Origin: an uncultured Phascolarctobacterium sp.
GTDB lineage: Bacteria > Bacillota > Negativicutes > Acidaminococcales > Acidaminococcaceae
DNA: 13,270 bases
Reading direction: 5' to 3'
NCBI GenBank assembly: GCA_949287345.1
Contig: CASEGD010000012.1
Coordinates: 1 to 13,270, forward strand
Part shown: one piece after another, positions 2,694 through 13,021 of the stretch
How positions within the stretch are numbered: the stretch's first letter is position 1
How the letters are laid out: each line of letters starts with the position of its first letter
The notes under the pieces: generated by a model
Database searches by the model: none
Seen by the model: the letters and a program-made list of their open reading frames with translations, nothing else
Told to the model about the DNA's origin: nothing
Made by a program: the position numbers and the translations under genes

Positions 2694-3157
2694 CAACGCA
2701 GCAAAGGCCCGACTGGGACCATTACTTTATGGAAATTGCCCGCGTGGTAAGCAAGCGCAGCACATGCCTGCGCCGCAGCGTCGGCGCGGTAATTGTTAAA
2801 AACAGGCAGATTGTGGCGACCGGCTACAACGGTACGCCTTCCGGCCTGGAACACTGCGCCGTTACCGGCTGCCTGCGCGAGCAGCTTAATGTGCCCTCCG
2901 GCAAAATGCACGAGCTGTGCCGCGGCATCCACGCCGAGCAGAATGCGGTAATACAGGCTGCCTACCACGGCGTTTCCGTCAACGGCGGCACGGTTTACTG
3001 CACGCACCAGCCTTGCGTGGTATGCACTAAAATACTCATCAACGCTGGTATTAAACGCATCGTTTACGCCAATCCCTACCCGGATAAGCTGGCGCAGGAT
3101 ATGCTGCAGGCATCCGGCATGGAACTTGTAATTTTAGACGACGAAAAAGATAAATAA
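2690..3157 (+). CDS. comEB: Deoxycytidylate (dCMP) deaminase family, ComEB-like
   Basis: A zinc-dependent deaminase that probably converts dCMP to dUMP, the thymidylate synthase substrate. The 155 residues carry the cytidine/deoxycytidylate deaminase fold signatures: [20 protein letters not shown] at the N-terminus, [20 protein letters not shown], the zinc and proton-relay motif HAE at residues 81-83, and PCVVC, whose cysteines 109 and 112 are the other zinc ligands. The extra Cys/His residues around 55-77 resemble the second zinc site described for some dCMP deaminases; this is inference. The ATG overlaps the upp stop (ATGA), and no good ribosome binding site is seen, so expression likely depends on coupling. 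A strong terminator starts one base after the stop, which makes this the last gene of the operon. Confidence 0.93.
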
Positions 3158-3201
3158 AAAGAACTGCGATACAGAATTTGCTGTATCGCAGTTCTTTTTT
3201 T
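3158..3201 (+). terminator. Rho-independent terminator of the rpiB-comEB operon
   Basis: A perfect 14-bp stem (3161-3174 with 3181-3194), extended by A/T pairs, closes a 6-base loop (AATTTG) and is followed by seven T. It begins right after the deaminase stop. The preceding A run means it may also work weakly in the reverse direction. Confidence 0.95.
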
Positions 3202-3205
3202 GCTA

Positions 3206-3234
3206 TTGCCAAAATGTTGCAAGACTGTTAAAAT
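3206..3234 (+). promoter_or_regulatory. Promoter of the small toxin gene
   Basis: TTGCCA (3206-3211) and TAAAAT (3229-3234) each match the sigma-70/SigA consensus at five of six positions and are 17 bases apart. The predicted transcript would begin near 3241, exactly where the left arm of the long inverted repeat starts. No other gene uses this promoter before the 25-codon frame at 3294. Confidence 0.7.
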
Positions 3235-3266
3235 ATTATCTGCACGAAGATTGGTGATTCGGTTTT

Positions 3267-3288
3267 CCACTCCGCACGAGTGGGGGTG
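3267..3288 (+). promoter_or_regulatory. Hairpin overlapping the toxin ribosome binding site
   Basis: CCACTC (3267-3272) pairs perfectly with GAGTGG (3278-3283) around the loop CGCAC. The downstream arm runs into the Shine-Dalgarno sequence GGGGGTG (3282-3288), which sits five bases before the ATG at 3294. The stem could therefore limit ribosome access, as is common in type I toxin mRNAs. Confidence 0.6.
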
Positions 3289-3293
3289 ATACT

Positions 3294-3371
3294 ATGACGG
3301 TGTACGAATCGTTATCGCTTATGATAACCTTTGCTACCTTAGTAGTACTCATTCTTTCATTCCGTAAATAA
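3294..3371 (+). CDS. Small holin-like membrane toxin peptide (type I toxin-antitoxin candidate)
   Basis: A 25-residue peptide, MTVYESLSLMITFATLVV followed by LILSFRK. It is one hydrophobic membrane helix (about residues 8-22) with a short polar N-terminus and a basic C-terminal tail. It closely resembles the family annotated as putative holin-like toxin (Hol_Tox), small peptides encoded near antisense RNAs in Firmicutes; that resemblance is from memory. It has its own promoter (3206-3234), a strong Shine-Dalgarno sequence partly caught in a hairpin, and a convergent antisense RNA gene overlapping its 3' flank. Together these indicate a type I toxin, expected to insert in and damage the cytoplasmic membrane when the antisense RNA is absent. 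No peptide terminator with a T run is seen directly after it on the plus strand. The frame is too short for ordinary gene finders. Confidence 0.82.
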   Translation: MTVYESLSLMITFATLVVLILSFRK

Positions 3372-3378
3372 CGGCATG

Positions 3379-3409
3379 AAAAAAACCGTATAACACGGTT
3401 ACACGGTTT
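3379..3409 (-). terminator. Terminator of the antisense RNA
   Basis: Read on the minus strand, AAACCGT-G-TAA pairs with TTA-T-ACGGTTT (one G-U pair) around the loop CCGTG, followed by seven T (complement of A 3379-3385). On the plus strand the same hairpin has an A-C mismatch and no T run, so it should stop only the antisense transcript. Confidence 0.85.
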
Positions 3410-3466
3410 CCTTCAAACTATAAATTTGATAAGGGAAAACCGATGCGGCTAAACATCAATCTTCGT
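3379..3466 (-). ncRNA. Convergent antisense RNA, probable antitoxin of the holin-like toxin
   Basis: A minus-strand transcription unit of about 88 nt is defined by a near-consensus promoter (3473-3501) and an intrinsic terminator (3379-3409). Its start is inferred about seven bases after the -10 box, near 3466. The RNA does not cover the toxin codons, which end at 3371. It would be fully complementary to the 3' untranslated part of the toxin mRNA if that mRNA runs beyond 3409. This 3'-overlap layout is like known type I pairs such as txpA/RatA. Its first bases repeat the first bases of the toxin mRNA (GCACGAAGATTG, then CGGTTTTCC). It has no open frame worth calling. The regulatory role is inferred from layout only. 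Confidence 0.75.
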
Positions 3467-5918: not shown

Positions 5919-5970
5919 AGAAGGTATGAAGATTTATGATTTTTTTATGACGTGAAATGTGGTGAGCGCC

Positions 5971-6363
5971 ATGTTGGACGAAAATCTGGAAAAAGTTAAG
6001 CTTGCCGACAGAAAAAGGCAGGAAATTGCCCGGCGCATCAAGGCACGCCTTGAAAGGCAGCGCCGCCAGGAGCTTGAACGCATCCGCATGATGAATGCGT
6101 TTGCGATTGTTTCCTCGCTTGGCATGATGACGGTTATCGACTTTTTGCTGGCCTACTGGGGCGGCGATTATCTCGATGCTTATTTCCGGACGGAAGACCA
6201 TTTCTGGCGTAAAATCTGCCTTGGCCTTGCGGGGCTCACGTTTTTCCTGGCAATTTTTAAGTTAATTTATTTCAAACCCGAGGATACCAAGCCTCAGGAA
6301 GAAGAAAATGAAGAAAACGCTGAAAATGCCGTAATCGATAATTCAACAAAGGACAGCAAATAA
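5971..6363 (+). CDS. AtpZ-like small membrane protein of the ATP synthase operon
   Basis: A 130-residue protein with two membrane helices (about 42-62 and 82-100) at the head of the atp operon. Position and the hydrophobic pair separated by a short loop with GGDYLD match the AtpZ/AtpI-type proteins (F0F1-ATPase subunit, putative), which help assembly of the c ring or supply Mg2+ in characterised alkaliphilic Bacillus. The core is flanked by unusual additions: a very basic predicted helix at residues 8-39, rich in Arg, Lys and Glu, and an acidic tail from about 103 to 130. The start is uncertain. I prefer ATG 5971 with GGTGAG just before it, over GTG 5959, which has no ribosome binding site. 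It precedes atpI by only eight bases. Assignment rests on context and topology more than on sequence motifs. Confidence 0.65.
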   Translation: MLDENLEKVKLADRKRQEIARRIKARLERQRRQELERIRMMNAFAIVSSLGMMTVIDFLLAYWGGDYLDAYFRTEDHFWRKICLGLAGLTFFLAIFKLIYFKPEDTKPQEEENEENAENAVIDNSTKDSK

Positions 6364-6371
6364 AATATATT

Positions 6372-6779
6372 ATGGGAAACTTTGATTTAACGCCGCTGGT
6401 TAAAAGCGGCGGGTATAAAGTTATTTACCGTCTGTTTGTCTGGTCCGTGCCTTTGGTACTGCTTTTATTTACGTTTGGAAACCATGATTTTGCCGTTTCT
6501 TTTTTCAGAGGCGTGGTAATCGGCTTGCTTGACACAGTCGTTATGTTCCACGGAATGAAGCAGGCACTGCCTTACGTCGATACTCCCCGAAAGGGAGTTA
6601 AAGTAATGCGCAGGTACAGATATTACCGTTTGGGCATTGCAGGCAGCATTTTTGTGTTGATGTTAAGGATGAAATACCCGGTTTTCGGTGCAAGCCTGGG
6701 ATTTCTTCTGATACATATATTTTTAATCATCAATTTATTATTTTTCGCGTACCGTCTTAACAACAAGAAGGAAGCGTGA
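6372..6779 (+). CDS. atpI: ATP synthase subunit I-like membrane protein (AtpI)
   Basis: A 135-residue protein with four hydrophobic segments, roughly residues 18-36, 42-60, 87-99 and 104-126, with basic loops between (PRKGVKVMRRYRYYR near 72-86). Size, topology and position just before atpB fit the AtpI (ATP-synt_I) family, which assists assembly of the c ring in several bacteria but is not part of the mature enzyme. The ribosome binding site is weak: AAAGGA lies too far upstream, so it is probably coupled to the gene before it. Its TGA stop overlaps a GTG that could start atpB, although a better atpB start lies 21 bases downstream. No membrane-embedded catalytic residue is expected. Confidence 0.7.
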   Translation: MGNFDLTPLVKSGGYKVIYRLFVWSVPLVLLLFTFGNHDFAVSFFRGVVIGLLDTVVMFHGMKQALPYVDTPRKGVKVMRRYRYYRLGIAGSIFVLMLRMKYPVFGASLGFLLIHIFLIINLLFFAYRLNNKKEA

Positions 6780-6796
6780 GGAAAGGAGTGAAAAGG

Positions 6797-7513
6797 ATGG
6801 GAAATGAAGCAGCTGCTATGGCACAGGGAGCTGAACAGTCGGGTGAAATTATACATTACGCTGCAACAGAAATAGCACCTGGTATTGTAATCAATATGCA
6901 GACTATGTATATGACCTGGATTGCGATGGCTATCGTCTTTGTACTGTTTTTTATAGTTTCGCGCAATCCGAAGATGGTTCCGAGCGGCCTGCAAAATGTG
7001 ATGGAAATGGTTATCGATTTCCTTGATGGCATGATGAACCAGAATCTTGGCGAAAAAGGCCGTAAATATATGGCTTCTTTCATTATTACCTTGTTCATGT
7101 TCATCTTAATAAGCAACGAAATCGGCATGCTTCCTCAGATTGGTGTTCATTGGACGTCACCGACCAACGACATCAATACATGTTTTGCACTTTCGCTGTT
7201 AATCGCCCTTAGTGCTTACATTGTAGGCGTTGCAAGACAGGGTCTCAAACATTTTAAACATTTTGTGCAACCTGCCCCCGGCTTTATCGTGTTGCACTTG
7301 CTGGACGCGGTTACCAAACCGTTGACTATGGCACTTCGTCTTTTCGGTAACATTCTGGCAGGCGAAATTTTGCTGATAGTTCTTTACCAGCTGTCTCCGT
7401 GGATTATTCCGGAGTTCTGGGTAATGTTCAGCTTGTTCATTGGCTTTGTCCAGGCCTTTATCTTTACGATTCTGGCATTGGGCAGCTATGCTCTGGCGTT
7501 CTCCGAACATTAA
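6797..7513 (+). CDS. atpB: F0F1 ATP synthase subunit a
   Basis: Membrane subunit a forms the ion half-channels next to the c ring. The protein is 238 residues from ATG 6797, chosen because AAGGAG (6783-6788) is eight bases upstream; the in-frame GTG at 6776 would overlap atpI and has a poorer site. Five to six hydrophobic segments are visible. The essential stator arginine is Arg181 in MALRLFGNILAGE, and the preceding LDAVTKPLTMALR and the C-terminal FVQAFIFTILALGSYAL are typical. ISNEIGMLP (about 105-113) is the conserved loop after the second helix, where most families have N-x-x-G-L-x-P. A GFIVLHLLD stretch replaces the more usual loop, without disturbing the core. No break is seen. Confidence 0.96.
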   Translation: MGNEAAAMAQGAEQSGEIIHYAATEIAPGIVINMQTMYMTWIAMAIVFVLFFIVSRNPKMVPSGLQNVMEMVIDFLDGMMNQNLGEKGRKYMASFIITLFMFILISNEIGMLPQIGVHWTSPTNDINTCFALSLLIALSAYIVGVARQGLKHFKHFVQPAPGFIVLHLLDAVTKPLTMALRLFGNILAGEILLIVLYQLSPWIIPEFWVMFSLFIGFVQAFIFTILALGSYALAFSEH

Positions 7514-7566: not shown

Positions 7567-7818
7567 ATGTCTGAAACTGCAATTATTACGGCTGCATCTT
7601 TGATTGGTGCAGGTCTTGTTTGCCTTGGTGCTGCTACCGGTGCTGGTGTTGGTAACGGTAATATGTGCGGAAAATCTATCGAATCTATGGCTCGTCAGCC
7701 GGAAGAATCTGGTAAAATCTTTACCAACATGCTGGTTTGCGTAGGCCTTATCGAATCCATGCCTATCCTTTGCTACGTTATAGCAATCGTTCTTGTATTT
7801 GCTAACCCTTTCATTTAA
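7567..7818 (+). CDS. atpE: F0F1 ATP synthase subunit c
   Basis: The c subunit forms the rotor ring and carries the ion. The 83 residues form a helical hairpin: helix 1 with the glycine motif GAGVGNG (25-31), the polar loop with RQPEE (43-47), and helix 2 with the ion-binding Glu63 in GLIESMPIL. Ser64 directly follows the Glu, a feature shared with Na+-binding rings, but the usual Gln of the GxGxGxG helix is Asn30, and Met65 and Leu68 replace the Thr and Tyr of the classic Na+ motif. Ion choice is therefore open. Two Cys (58 and 69) lie in helix 2. The gene has AAAGGA eight bases upstream, an AT-rich leader (7530-7550) like the translation enhancer known for E. coli atpE, and tandem stops TAATAG. 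Confidence 0.97.
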   Translation: MSETAIITAASLIGAGLVCLGAATGAGVGNGNMCGKSIESMARQPEESGKIFTNMLVCVGLIESMPILCYVIAIVLVFANPFI

Positions 7819-7865: not shown

Positions 7866-8345
7866 TTGATTGACTTCAACGCAACGTTAATTGCGCAGGT
7901 ACTGAACTTTTTGTTCTTGGTGTTCATTCTCGCAAAATTTGCGTACAAACCCGTCATTAACATGATGGAAGACCGCAAGAACAAAATCGCAAGCGACCTG
8001 GAAAACGCTGAAATGGCGAAAGCCGAAGCTGAAAAATTAAAAGCTGAATATGCTGCTCAGCTGGCTGCTGTACGTCAGGAAGCTCAGAGCATCATTGAAA
8101 ATGCACGCAAAACCGCTCAGTCCGTTCACGACAAGATTATTGCCGAAACCAAAGAAGAACAGGAACAAATTGTTGCTTCCGCGAAAGACGCAATTTTGCT
8201 TGAAAAACAGCAGGCTTTGGGCGAAGTTCGTGCTCAGGTTATCAAACTTAGTTTGGTTGCTGCCGGTAAAATCCTGGAACAGAAATTAAATTCTGCAGAA
8301 GATGAAAAATTGGCAGGTTCCGTTGTTGATAAAATAATGAAATAA
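7866..8345 (+). CDS. atpF: F0F1 ATP synthase subunit b
   Basis: Subunit b is the peripheral stalk that holds the F1 head against rotation. The 159-residue protein starts at TTG 7866 behind AAGGGAGGG (7851-7859). It begins with one membrane helix (residues about 6-26), then the VNxxxxxRxxxI-like segment KPVINMMEDRKNKIASDLEN, followed by a long Ala/Glu/Lys-rich coiled coil to the C-terminus (LVAAGKILEQKLNSAEDEKL). The length is normal for a lone b subunit, so it is not the b-delta fusion known from mycobacteria. In other bacteria the b C-terminus binds the delta C-terminal domain; here that domain is found on alpha, encoded by the next gene. The expected atpH gene does not follow: only 77 bases separate it from atpA. 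Confidence 0.95.
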   Translation: MIDFNATLIAQVLNFLFLVFILAKFAYKPVINMMEDRKNKIASDLENAEMAKAEAEKLKAEYAAQLAAVRQEAQSIIENARKTAQSVHDKIIAETKEEQEQIVASAKDAILLEKQQALGEVRAQVIKLSLVAAGKILEQKLNSAEDEKLAGSVVDKIMK

Positions 8346-8422
8346 ATATTGATTTGTGTTCCGAATACGCCGGATGCATCCTTTATGGGCATGAACCGGC
8401 AGATTGAGGTGATTGGTACAAT
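8346..8422 (+). other. atpF-atpA gap where atpH is expected, with a hairpin
   Basis: This is the place where delta (atpH) sits in most bacterial atp operons, but 77 bases cannot hold it. The gap contains a perfect palindrome GGATGCATCC (8372-8381) inside a larger imperfect hairpin: GCCGG (8369-8373) with CCGGC (8396-8400), and ATGC (8374-8377) with GCAT (8389-8392). GAGGTG at 8406-8411 is the atpA ribosome binding site. The frame following the atpF stop stays open to a TGA that overlaps the atpA start, but its 26 codons do not resemble delta. Confidence 0.6.
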
Positions 8423-10255
8423 ATGAAGAATGAAGAAAATATTGCTTTGATAGAGCAAGAATTGTCCGATTTCAAGATTGACCGCAGTTCTATCAAAGAT
8501 TTGCTGGAAGTAAAAGTTACTACTGCTAAAAAACTTACTTCCGACGAGTATCAATCCATTTCTGCAATTCTTACCGAGAGACTTGGCAGCGACATTTACA
8601 TGAACAAAATCGTGGATCCTGCTATCCTCGGTGGTATTATAGTACAAGTTGGCGATAAGGTATTCGACGCTTCCGCTCTCCGCAAACTGAAGAAAATGGA
8701 AGTTGTTATGGATGGCATTGACATCCACGAATACTCCTTACAGGACACCGCTAAAATCTCTGATGCCATGGGCGCTAAGCTCGAGAATTACAGTGTGGAT
8801 GTAAACTTGGAAGAAGTCGGCATTGTAGAAAAAATCGGTGACGGCATTGCTACCGTTATCGGTATGAAAAACGCTATGGCAGGCGAAATGGTTGAGCTGC
8901 CGAACAATGTAACCGGTATGGTACTCAACCTTGACCGTGAAGATGTCGGTATCGTACTTCTCGGCGGCGAAACCCGTGTTAAAGAGGGCGACATCGTACG
9001 CAGAACCGGCCGCATCATGGAAGTTGGCGTGGGCGAAGGACTTCTCGGCCGCGTTGTAAGCGCCCTGGGCGAGCCTATCGACGGTAAAGGCGCTATTAAC
9101 TACGCCGAAAAACGCCCGATTGAATCCCCGGCTCACGGCATTGCAGACCGTGAATCCGTAGATACCCCGCTGCAGACCGGTATTAAATGTATCGACGCTC
9201 TCGTTCCTATCGGACGTGGCCAGCGCGAACTTATTATCGGCGACCGCGGCACCGGCAAAACTGCCGTTGCAATTGATACCATTCTTAACCAGAAAGGCCA
9301 GAACGTAATCTGCATTTACGTTGCTATCGGCCAGAAGGCTTCCAACATTGCCCGTATCGTTCGTACCCTCGAACAGCACGGCGCAATGGAATATTCCATC
9401 GTTGTTGCAGCTACCGCGGCTGATTCCGCTCCGCTGCAGTACATCGCTCCGTATGCCGGTGTAACCATGGCAGAATACTTCATGGATCAGGGCAAAGACG
9501 TTCTGTGCGTATACGACGACCTTTCTAAACACGCCGTTGCATACCGCGCAATGTCCCTGCTGCTCCGCCGTCCTCCTGGACGTGAAGCATACCCCGGCGA
9601 CGTATTCTACTTACATTCCCGTCTGTTGGAACGCGCTGCTAAACTGAATAAAGAGCTTGGTAACGGCTCCATTACTGCACTGCCGGTTATCGAAACTCTG
9701 GCAGGCGATGTAGGCGGCTTTATTCCGACCAACGTAATTTCCATTACCGACGGCCAGATTTTCCTGGAATCCGAATTGTTCTACGCTGGTATCCGTCCGG
9801 CTATTAACTCCGGTTTGTCTGTATCCCGTGTAGGCGGCGCTGCACAGATTAAAGCAATGAAATCCGTTGCAGGCACCCTGCGCCTTGACCTTGCACAATA
9901 CCGTGAACTTGCTGCGTTTGCCCAGTTCGCATCTGACCTTGATAAAGCTACCAAGGCTCAGCTCGACCGCGGCCAGCGCCTGATGGAAATCATGAAGCAG
10001 GGCCAGTATCAGCCGCTGCCGGTAGAAAAAGAAGTTATGTCTATCTATGTAGGCACCAAAGGTTATCTTGATAATGTTGACGTTAAAAAGATTACCAGAT
10101 TCGAGAAAGAATTCCTTGAATTCATGGACGCAGCTCATCCGGCTGTTGGCGAATCCATCCGTGCCGAAAAGAAAATTACCGACGAAGCAGAAGCTGAACT
10201 GAAGAAAGCCATAGAACAGTTTAAGGAAACTTTTCTTGCCAGTGAAGGCAGGTGA
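8423..10255 (+). CDS. atpA: F0F1 ATP synthase alpha subunit with fused delta-subunit C-terminal domain
   Basis: The protein is 610 residues, about 104 more than a normal alpha. Residues 105-610 are a complete alpha: [12 protein letters not shown] at 112-123 matches the usual alpha N-terminal helix, the Walker A is GDRGTGKT (273-280, Lys279), and the arginine finger is Arg469 in [10 protein letters not shown]. Residues about 28-92 are not alpha. They match the C-terminal domain of ATP synthase delta (OSCP): [20 protein letters not shown], a helix ending [22 protein letters not shown], then [12 protein letters not shown], in the order and spacing seen in E. coli and Bacillus delta. The delta N-terminal six-helix domain is missing. 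The frame is continuous and the ATG has GAGGTG 12 bases upstream. In other enzymes delta clamps b to alpha, so the fusion would tether alpha directly to the stalk. Family matches are from memory, but the motifs are clear. Confidence 0.93.
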
Positions 10256-10262
10256 TTGACTG

Positions 10263-11162
10263 ATGGCTACTGCACGTGAGATTCATCGCCACATGAAAAG
10301 TGTCAAGAACATTGGTCAAATCACAAAGGCGATGAAAATGGTTGCTGCGGCACGTCTGCGCAAAGCGCAGGAAAGAGCTGCCGCCAGCCGTCCGTATGCT
10401 ATAAAAATTAAAGAGGTTTTAAGTAATATCGTCGGCGATAAAGGAACTTTGTCCGGCCTGAACCCGAGAAAACATCCTTTGCTCCAGAAACGTCCGGTTA
10501 AAAAGGTTGGTTTTCTGGTAATGTGCTCCGATAAAGGCCTTGCAGGCGCTTACGGCAGCAATGTTTTAAAACATGCTATGAGTGAAATCATGAAGGTTGA
10601 CGGCGAAGTGGTAGTTATTACCTGCGGCCGCCGCGCAAGAGATTTCTTCAGACACCGTGGATTTAACGTTCTTAAATCACATTTCGGTTTCTCCGATAAG
10701 CCCACCTACAATAATGCTGTTGAAGTTGCATATGACGCAGCACAGCGTTTTGCCGATGAGCAGTTTGATGAACTGCGCATTGTATATACTTTGTTTAAAT
10801 CGGCTTTGGCACAAATGCCTACCGCAGAAGTTATTCTTCCGCTGGAAGCTCCGAAAGAAGAAGTTTCCAAAGCAGGCGAAGCTCAGGTTAAAGCAAATAC
10901 CCAGTATCTGTTCATGCCTGAAGCCGAAGAAATCCTTGCCGATTTGGCACCTCGTTATCTGGAAACTGTTGTTTATGCCGCACTCGTACAATCCGCAGCC
11001 AGTGAGCTCGGTGCCCGTATGACTGCAATGAGTTCCGCAACCGATAACGCAGCTAAGCTGGTTAAGAGCCTTGAGCTTAACTACAACAAAGCCCGTCAGG
11101 CACAAATTACCCGCGAGCTGACCGAAATCTGCGGCGGCGCAGAGGCATTAAAACAGAACTGA
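10263..11162 (+). CDS. atpG: F0F1 ATP synthase gamma subunit
   Basis: Gamma is the central rotor shaft linking the c ring to the alpha-beta hexamer. The 299 residues are slightly longer than average. The N-terminal helix shows the family signature MATAREIHRHMKSVKNIGQI and TKAMKMVAAARLRKAQ, and the C-terminal helix shows ASELGARMTAMSSATDNAA and LELNYNKARQAQITRELTEI, the conserved coiled-coil that fits into the hexamer. The middle Rossmann-like part includes SDKGLAGAYGSN. AGGTGA (10250-10255), seven bases upstream of the ATG, overlaps the atpA stop. An insert-like stretch rich in Glu and Lys (about 198-212) lies where gamma lengths vary between species. Nothing suggests damage. Confidence 0.97.
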   Translation: MATAREIHRHMKSVKNIGQITKAMKMVAAARLRKAQERAAASRPYAIKIKEVLSNIVGDKGTLSGLNPRKHPLLQKRPVKKVGFLVMCSDKGLAGAYGSNVLKHAMSEIMKVDGEVVVITCGRRARDFFRHRGFNVLKSHFGFSDKPTYNNAVEVAYDAAQRFADEQFDELRIVYTLFKSALAQMPTAEVILPLEAPKEEVSKAGEAQVKANTQYLFMPEAEEILADLAPRYLETVVYAALVQSAASELGARMTAMSSATDNAAKLVKSLELNYNKARQAQITRELTEICGGAEALKQN

Positions 11163-11184: not shown

Positions 11185-12612
<1,428 letters not shown>

Positions 12613-12616
12613 TTGC

Positions 12617-13021
12617 ATGGCTAATTTAATGCAATTGGAAATTGTAACCCCTGATAAATACTTCATTAAAAGAGATGACGTTGTATATGCAGGCTTTGAA
12701 GCTTTAGACGGCGGTTTTGGCGTTTTCGCCAACCATATGCCTGCCATTGCAGCGCTTAAAGATGCCCCGTTTAAATACAGGGATTCCAATAATGAAGAAC
12801 ATTTCATTTATTTATCCGGCGGGTTTGCTGAAATAGTAAAAAATAAAATTACTATTCTCAGTATTTTAGCCGAAGCAGCCGAAGATATCGACCTTGAACG
12901 TGCGCACGCAGCTTTGGAAAGAGCTGAAAGCCGCATGAGCTCTCGGCAGAATCAGAACCGTGGAACTTTCCATGGCTGCCAAAATGAGATAAGCTTAATT
13001 TTAAAACGCACCTCTTATTAA
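12617..13021 (+). CDS. atpC: F0F1 ATP synthase epsilon subunit, probably frameshifted near the 3' end
   Basis: Epsilon sits at the foot of gamma and its C-terminal helices can inhibit ATP hydrolysis. The first 108 residues are typical: MQLEIVTPDKYF, the beta-sandwich with GGFGVFANHMPAIAALK and YLSGGFAEIVKNKITIL, then the first helix LERAHAALERAESRM. After that the frame given by the ATG reads a tail (SRQNQNRGTFHGC onward) that is not epsilon-like and runs to a stop at 13019 inside the terminator hairpin. The +1 frame, open from 12939, instead reads ALGRIRTVELSMAAKMR with a stop at 12990-12992, which resembles the normal second helix and ends before the terminator. I infer a one-base indel near 12935-12941, real or a sequencing error. 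AAGGTGG lies nine bases ahead of the ATG. Confidence 0.88.
   Translation: MANLMQLEIVTPDKYFIKRDDVVYAGFEALDGGFGVFANHMPAIAALKDAPFKYRDSNNEEHFIYLSGGFAEIVKNKITILSILAEAAEDIDLERAHAALERAESRMSSRQNQNRGTFHGCQNEISLILKRTSY

Follow-up and report, generated by a model that had tools for sequence, protein, structure and literature searches.

In the normal F-type ATP synthase, as described by Ueno et al. (Nat Commun 2025, PMC12229609), the N-terminal domain (NTD) of the delta subunit lies on the three-fold axis, where it is touched by two alpha subunits; the third alpha contacts the C-terminal part of delta, and delta holds the b2 dimer. Natural F-type ATP synthases are held, in that paper and in another, to have one outer stalk and one a subunit. 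Ueno et al. engineered in Bacillus PS3 FoF1 a fusion (deltaDeltaN-alpha) that joins the delta C-terminal domain (CTD), without the NTD, to the alpha N-terminus and leaves the F-type enzyme otherwise normal, and solved its structure. The engineered enzyme works and binds b2 canonically, with one, two or three stalks per particle: particles with three stalks were very rare, the mean was about two stalks, subunits a and b were respectively 2.2-fold and 1.8-fold higher than in the wild type, and the H+/ATP ratio was 5.8 as against 3.0. On these results, CTDs in excess of one can take up additional b2 stalks, each accompanied by an a subunit. Acidaminococcus fermentans is reported there to have such a gene naturally, and a multi-stalk enzyme in this organism is called highly likely; UniProt entries G4Q3K6 and A0A1I2C5T3 are also named, one of which could lie outside the Acidaminococcaceae. 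PDB chain 9jc1_I (580 amino acids, with both delta and alpha in its name) is, we infer, the structure from that study. In mycobacteria delta is likewise fused to another stalk subunit, in that case b (PDB 7jg5_d, 445 amino acids, 'ATP synthase subunit b-delta'), and alpha is separate; the N-ATPases have no delta subunit and a longer b (PMC5706428).

The window analysed here, the whole stretch of 13,270 nucleotides from an uncultured Phascolarctobacterium sp. (GCA_949287345.1, contig CASEGD010000012.1), carries a gene of the kind named in 2025 (PMC12229609). It differs from the engineered PS3 fusion in being natural, and from that of A. fermentans in coming from another genus of the same family. 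A sequence-only reading of this DNA had treated the stator design as one it had not seen described, which is out of date: a delta CTD-alpha fusion has been both engineered and named in a natural case in PMC12229609. The operon runs in the order atpI-like, a, c, b, alpha, gamma, beta, epsilon, with no atpH, and the features of the window are:

5959..6363, + strand: small protein with a weak ATPase_gene1 match (Pfam, E 0.017, under the cut-off)
6372..6779, + strand: atpI-like gene (Pfam ATP-synt_I, 21.4 bits, below the curated cut-off of 25.1)
6776..7513, + strand: atpB, subunit a (open reading frame (ORF), Pfam)
7567..7818, + strand: atpE, subunit c (ORF, Pfam)
7866..8345, + strand: atpF, subunit b, 159 amino acids, presumed partner of the delta CTD (ORF, Pfam, TIGR models)
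8406..8412, + strand: Shine-Dalgarno-like GAGGTGA, 10 bases ahead of the fusion ATG, duplex energy -9.9 kcal/mol
8423..10255, + strand: atpA, delta-CTD-alpha fusion, 610 amino acids (ORF, Pfam, TIGR models)
8429..8467, + strand: leading helix ahead of the delta-CTD core, residues about 3-15; OSCP match from residue 7, profile position 82 (Pfam, low-confidence model)
8504..8707, + strand: delta/OSCP CTD core, residues about 28-95, b-binding by homology (OSCP match, conserved residues, 9jc1_I alignment, dN/dS 0.05-0.18)
8708..8746, + strand: linker, residues about 96-108 (low-confidence model, dN/dS comparison)
8747..8785, + strand: alpha N-terminal helix, residues about 109-121, retained in the fusion (low-confidence model)
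8786..10252, + strand: rest of the complete F-type alpha (Pfam, TIGR00962, 9jc1_I alignment)
10263..11162, + strand: atpG, gamma (ORF, Pfam)
11197..12612, + strand: atpD, beta (named from its own sequence and aligned relatives, not from Pfam)
12617..13021, + strand: atpC, epsilon (ORF, Pfam)

In epsilon (12617-13021) the match to the long-helix domain is limited to positions 1-24 of 47 and matches to most relatives end short of the protein's terminus; either the protein is truly shortened or the draft has a frameshift late in the gene. Subunit c (7567-7818) has GVGNGN near the usual ion-site helix and ESMPI at the carboxylate, where some relatives have GD; use of Na+ or H+ is not readable from these residues.

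The atpA frame (8423-10255, + strand) has no internal stop, and its product contains a delta CTD in frame ahead of a complete F-type alpha, as the sequence-only reading had proposed. The Pfam OSCP model (PF00213) matches residues 7-93 at profile positions 82-169 of 172 (E 3.4e-16; 60.2 bits against a cut-off of 22.3; E 9.9e-18 when the first 116 residues are searched alone); these positions take in the C-terminal domain, and the N-terminal alpha-binding domain is absent from them. Further along the same ORF come the barrel, nucleotide-binding and C-terminal domains of alpha (Pfam), so that the order predicted beforehand, the C-terminal part of OSCP before the barrel, was obtained. Over residues 110-605 (positions 5-502 of 503) the score with TIGR00962 (atpA) is 806.9, well above the cut-off of 484.45. 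The 116-residue fragment scores 56.8 bits, slightly below the cut-off of 57.5, with TIGR01145, an equivalog model of the whole delta. Residues D65, G70, G71, G77, D78, D82, S84 and L89, all strongly conserved across 59 canonical delta CTDs, are kept in the fusion. Chain 9jc1_I aligns with residues 33-607, and the spacing from CTD to alpha, judged from the alignment ends, is about 16 residues there as against 19 in the window, roughly three more. The linker of some 12 residues suggested earlier fits the secondary structure of a low-confidence model (roughly residues 96-108, ahead of the alpha helix). The AlphaFold model of the full-length fusion was poor (mean pLDDT 66.5) and was therefore unused for domain placement; its structural matches (VIA-align) cover mainly residues 115-610, that is alpha only, and do not inform on the CTD. 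The delta CTD is under purifying selection, with dN/dS of 0.05-0.18 against seven relatives, similar to the 0.07-0.125 of alpha in the six computable comparisons; the linker value lies above that of the CTD in four of five comparisons, all these figures being rough because dS is near saturation in most pairs.

The window enzyme falls into neither of the other two known classes. Its b subunit is a separate ORF (7866-8345), and both b and the fusion score far under the cut-off of the b/delta model NF009961, so a b-delta of mycobacterial type was rejected. Like the N-ATPases (alternate F1F0; TIGR03321, TIGR03324) it has no separate delta subunit, although its CTD is carried on alpha; positions 178-242 of TIGR03321 match the window CTD weakly (E 0.00063, under the cut-off), and membership was rejected on the score of the window alpha with TIGR03324, the N-ATPase alpha model (613.3, below the cut-off of 750.5). 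In another genome (G055) a second operon, L161, has b and a delta CTD in one chain of 259 amino acids beside a 49% identical alpha, and is perhaps an N-ATPase.

The distribution of the fusion was surveyed by searching the window genome and 60 relatives with the OSCP model, 37 of these genomes belonging to the window's family, the Acidaminococcaceae (f1), and 24 lying elsewhere. In 34 of the 37, the match runs from position 76 onwards in frames of 460-639 amino acids, two of which are cut at contig ends; for G019 the match was reported in a frame of 750 running through two stops, its own ORF having 587 amino acids. In the 24 genomes from other families delta is full-length, encoded by frames of about 180-200 amino acids. 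A profile-based reading of the f1 loci, the window included, found CTD-alpha in 34 of 34, with records named Phascolarctobacterium faecium DSM 14760 (an isolate, L032), Phascolarctobacterium sp. and Acidaminococcaceae bacterium. Elsewhere in the Negativicutes an NTD-CTD delta lies upstream of an unfused alpha in 26 of 27 loci; in the remaining one, L156, hand-labelled as a separate delta for the tree, only a CTD was detected, in a frame of 141 amino acids. The NTD also stands upstream of an unfused alpha in 73 of 74 further loci, the exception, L098, ending at a contig end. In a class survey of 380 genomes, 50 of the 59 from f1 had an OSCP match, all with half-domain scores (E 1e-12 to 1e-19), 16 of the 50 being represented by scores only, with no match positions listed. 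In the nine f1 genomes where no OSCP match was found, the alpha search at E 1e-20 gave nothing in seven and just a 28% identical paralogue in two; these absences are read as assembly gaps. The fusion is family-wide in the Acidaminococcaceae.

The corresponding loss of the delta NTD was assessed with a profile built from 15 such domains, which finds delta in nine of nine control genomes, four of which (G037, G038, G039, G051) had contributed rows to the profile and five had not. With E values up to 10 it found no match in any of 15 f1 genomes, including that of the window (89.7% complete), nor in the Schwartzia-like genome G219; in the window genome (207 contigs) the fusion is the sole OSCP match up to the same E value. 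Only 77 bases lie between the end of atpF (8345) and the start of atpA (8423), so that there is no room for an NTD between them. G001 (100% complete) and G019 (98%) have no close alpha besides the fused gene, their other matches showing 26-28% identity. With the NTD gone and no other close alpha, gene content implies three CTDs per F1.

A possible route to the fusion is suggested by a neighbouring family of the same order, f2. Both of its genomes (G037, locus L144; G040, locus L145) have a full delta of 192 amino acids, a CTD-only ORF of 110 amino acids (L144 4868-5200, reverse complement; L145:4316-4648) and an unfused alpha, which has 511 amino acids in G037 and is cut at a contig end in G040; the stop and start codons of neighbours in this series overlap. 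Both alpha trees place f2 (G037) as the sister group of the fused clade, with support of 99 (135 rows) and 98 (79 rows). It is plausible that the f2 arrangement (INTERMEDIATE), seen in these two genomes, is an intermediate, and the path would then begin with a duplicate CTD gene, continue with removal of the stop ahead of alpha and end with loss of the full delta. The leading helix of the free CTD gene (L144, L145) resembles, by eye, the N-terminal helix of alpha, and the gene may have gained an alpha-like start. Families f3 and f4, with one genome each, have ordinary delta and alpha.

The fused synthase has also moved beyond the family. Two Schwartzia-like genomes, G218 and G219 (genus g58, family f15), carry the delta-CTD-alpha fusion; the other f15 genomes with an OSCP match have full or near-full delta scores (E 1e-34 or better), except G223, in which only the N-terminal half of delta was found. 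In both alpha trees G219, the sole Schwartzia row, lies inside f1 beside G017 and G033 with support of 99. These trees were built from 135 rows, after duplicates and truncated loci had been dropped, and from 79 of the same rows, thinned by hand and without the long rows L161, L229 and L237. An AU test rejected holding G219 with two other f15 alphas (p 1.7e-56) and holding f1 without G219 (p 0.006). The tree placement and these rejections indicate transfer from the Acidaminococcaceae to the Schwartzia-like genomes.

Reduced delta subunits were found in the Clostridia as well. In Clostridiales bacterium SUG145 (L052, 3470-5719), one of a set of 80 loci, a single ORF of 749 amino acids comprises a b-like part with a membrane helix (b'), a delta CTD and alpha, adjoined by a separate b gene (2942-3427), and no further OSCP match was found in this genome up to E 0.1. 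Loss of the NTD and the CTD on alpha are shared with the window, from which this form differs by having the b-like part in the chain. The same b'-deltaCTD-alpha form occurs in L213, L215, L220, L221, L227 and L246 (the last cut at a contig end), with ORFs of 736-812 amino acids where uncut and a separate b gene upstream. An OSCP match up to E 0.001 was found in 76 of 149 genomes, made up of that of L052 and its relatives. The 68 Clostridia loci counted comprise 30 with a full separate delta, four with full delta fused to alpha, 18 with CTD-alpha, seven with b'-CTD-alpha, six with a free CTD (72-74 amino acids) beside alpha, and one each with CTD-CTD-alpha, b-CTD beside alpha, and a short delta; matches such as those in G406, G441, G448, G450, G453, G462, G471 and G490 fall outside these loci, and three listed loci (L195, L211, L245) held no alpha. 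Some of the labels were given by hand: L216 is called full delta-alpha (662-residue ORF, OSCP positions 31-170), where the profile saw only a CTD; L244 is called CTD-alpha (OSCP positions 100-171), where the profile missed the CTD; and L219 is called a short delta. Homologous proteins are labelled Oscillospiraceae, Vescimonas, Limivicinus, Christensenellales and, once, Selenomonadaceae. Normal and reduced or fused operons occur together in four genomes: G392 (L205, L241), G427 (L188, L208), G437 (L193, L247) and G465 (L204, L246).

Several of these loci have further peculiarities. L217 has two tandem delta CTDs before alpha in one ORF of 675 amino acids; L218, counted as CTD-alpha, also has a b' of 242 amino acids with a CTD-like end, seen by eye; L247 has gamma and beta in one ORF of 766 amino acids, together with a chain that combines b and a delta CTD, and a separate alpha. 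L226 has gamma and beta in one ORF of 645 amino acids, with the beta match split over two frames, possibly owing to a frameshift.

Holding together the three Clostridia clades with CTD-only delta was not rejected by the AU test (p 0.23), and holding the window's family with the b'-deltaCTD-alpha clade was rejected weakly (p 0.03). Since the Clostridia grouping was not rejected, at least two origins rather than four are claimed, in the window's family and in the Clostridia.

The order of parts in the window protein is that of the engineered PS3 fusion and of 9jc1_I, and the proposed role of the CTD on alpha as the anchor of b2 is well supported by this analogy. Very probably, the delta CTD would bind the end of b2 in the usual way, straight on alpha, and the covalent link to alpha would replace the docking otherwise given by the delta NTD. 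This part of the sequence-only reading is accepted, with the NTD found in none of 15 family genomes and the CTD fused in 34 of 34 loci; of that interpretation the CTD-only delta, the covalent link and the stoichiometric puzzle stand, and the novelty of the design, in view of PMC12229609, does not. The puzzle, three CTDs for one b dimer, is a real one, and is answered in principle by the extra b2 stalks on the engineered enzyme (PMC12229609). Three CTDs per F1, with no symmetry-breaking cap, would allow more than one b2 stalk and a subunit in the natural enzyme too; that it can take them is a serious possibility falling somewhat short of an even expectation, the stalk number not being visibly encoded in the sequence. 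In the triple fusions of the Clostridia, b' and alpha are in the ratio 1:1, which makes three b' per F1 as long as the chain is neither cleaved nor translated from an internal start; the separate b could pair with each b'. The chain order in these proteins, b end, CTD and alpha start, matches the way those ends come together atop F1. A joint reading of the two groups, put forward tentatively, is that a delta NTD that limits the number of stalks has been lost repeatedly, and that the Clostridia b'-deltaCTD-alpha with a separate b would fix that number at three. No protein data on any natural fused enzyme were found in a literature search.

Extra a subunits would raise the number of ions used per ATP, as in the engineered PS3 enzyme, and an association with Na+-pumping decarboxylases was considered. 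The Na+-decarboxylase beta subunit (TIGR01109) was found in 18 of 24 hand-picked genomes, unfused relatives included, and was not found in four of four Clostridia genomes, in G218 or in the incomplete genome of the window. The decarboxylase is not special to the fused genomes; a special tie with the fusion was rejected, and the physiological case for a high ion/ATP ratio is consequently weak.

About as likely as several stalks is a single one, with one CTD binding b2, the other two idle, and the fusion merely making the NTD unnecessary; this too is a reading on which we stop a little short of even confidence. Nothing unusual is seen in the genes for a, b and c, a single stalk would result if b or a were in short supply, and triple-stalk particles are rare even in the engineered enzyme (PMC12229609). 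However, that engineered homologue fills more than one site (PMC12229609), and in the Clostridia a single stalk on b'-deltaCTD-alpha would leave two membrane-bound b' without a stalk. Selection on the CTD does not decide the matter, because all three copies come from one gene.

The puzzle would also disappear if an internal start or proteolysis yielded normal alpha as well, so that only some alphas carried a CTD. In 24 of the family's 34 genes, several of which are near-identical, an in-frame ATG stands 15 codons ahead of the alpha core, some metagenome copies of the Clostridia proteins have been called from inner starts, and individual triple fusions have strong inner sites (for example L246, ATG at residue 260, -10.3 kcal/mol; L215, at 191-192, -9.7 kcal/mol). 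Against this, the other 10 family genes lack the ATG, Shine-Dalgarno energies at the inner ATGs are +0.4 to -5.0 kcal/mol whereas the presumed true starts have -6.8 to -13.8, the mean for 461 in-frame ATGs within alpha is -2.5 kcal/mol, and no strong site near alpha is common to the triple fusions. With signals that are weak and not conserved, internal initiation was rejected as the answer to the 3:1 ratio, and mixed alphas are improbable. Less probable still is a diverged or unrelated protein that replaces the NTD and still fixes one stalk: a wholly replaced protein would be invisible to profiles, but the NTD profile finds nothing in the 15 family genomes even at E values up to 10, and just 77 bases separate b and alpha in the window. 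That a frameshift or misassembly joined atpH to atpA, as a draft genome in 207 contigs might suggest, is practically inconceivable and is refuted by the same joint in all 34 f1 loci, including the isolate P. faecium DSM 14760, none of which has the normal alpha and separate atpH that the sequence-only reading had looked for in related strains as the mark of an artefact, although neighbouring families do have separate delta and alpha.

The family-wide presence of the fusion, the plausible intermediate, the transfer to Schwartzia-like genomes and the Clostridia forms were not found in PMC12229609, its supplement aside, or in the other literature searched. How many ions are spent per ATP is set by the number of outer stalks and a subunits together with the c-ring, and if the CTD on each alpha is used, as many as three stalks could be attached to this motor, where one is usual. 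The design that gives up to three stalks when engineered is encoded throughout a bacterial family that includes cultured members, the neighbouring family f2 represents a likely step towards it, and the Clostridia b'-deltaCTD-alpha genes come close to specifying the number of b' per F1; together these make the natural use of multi-stalk F-type enzymes a question that can be addressed in cultured species.
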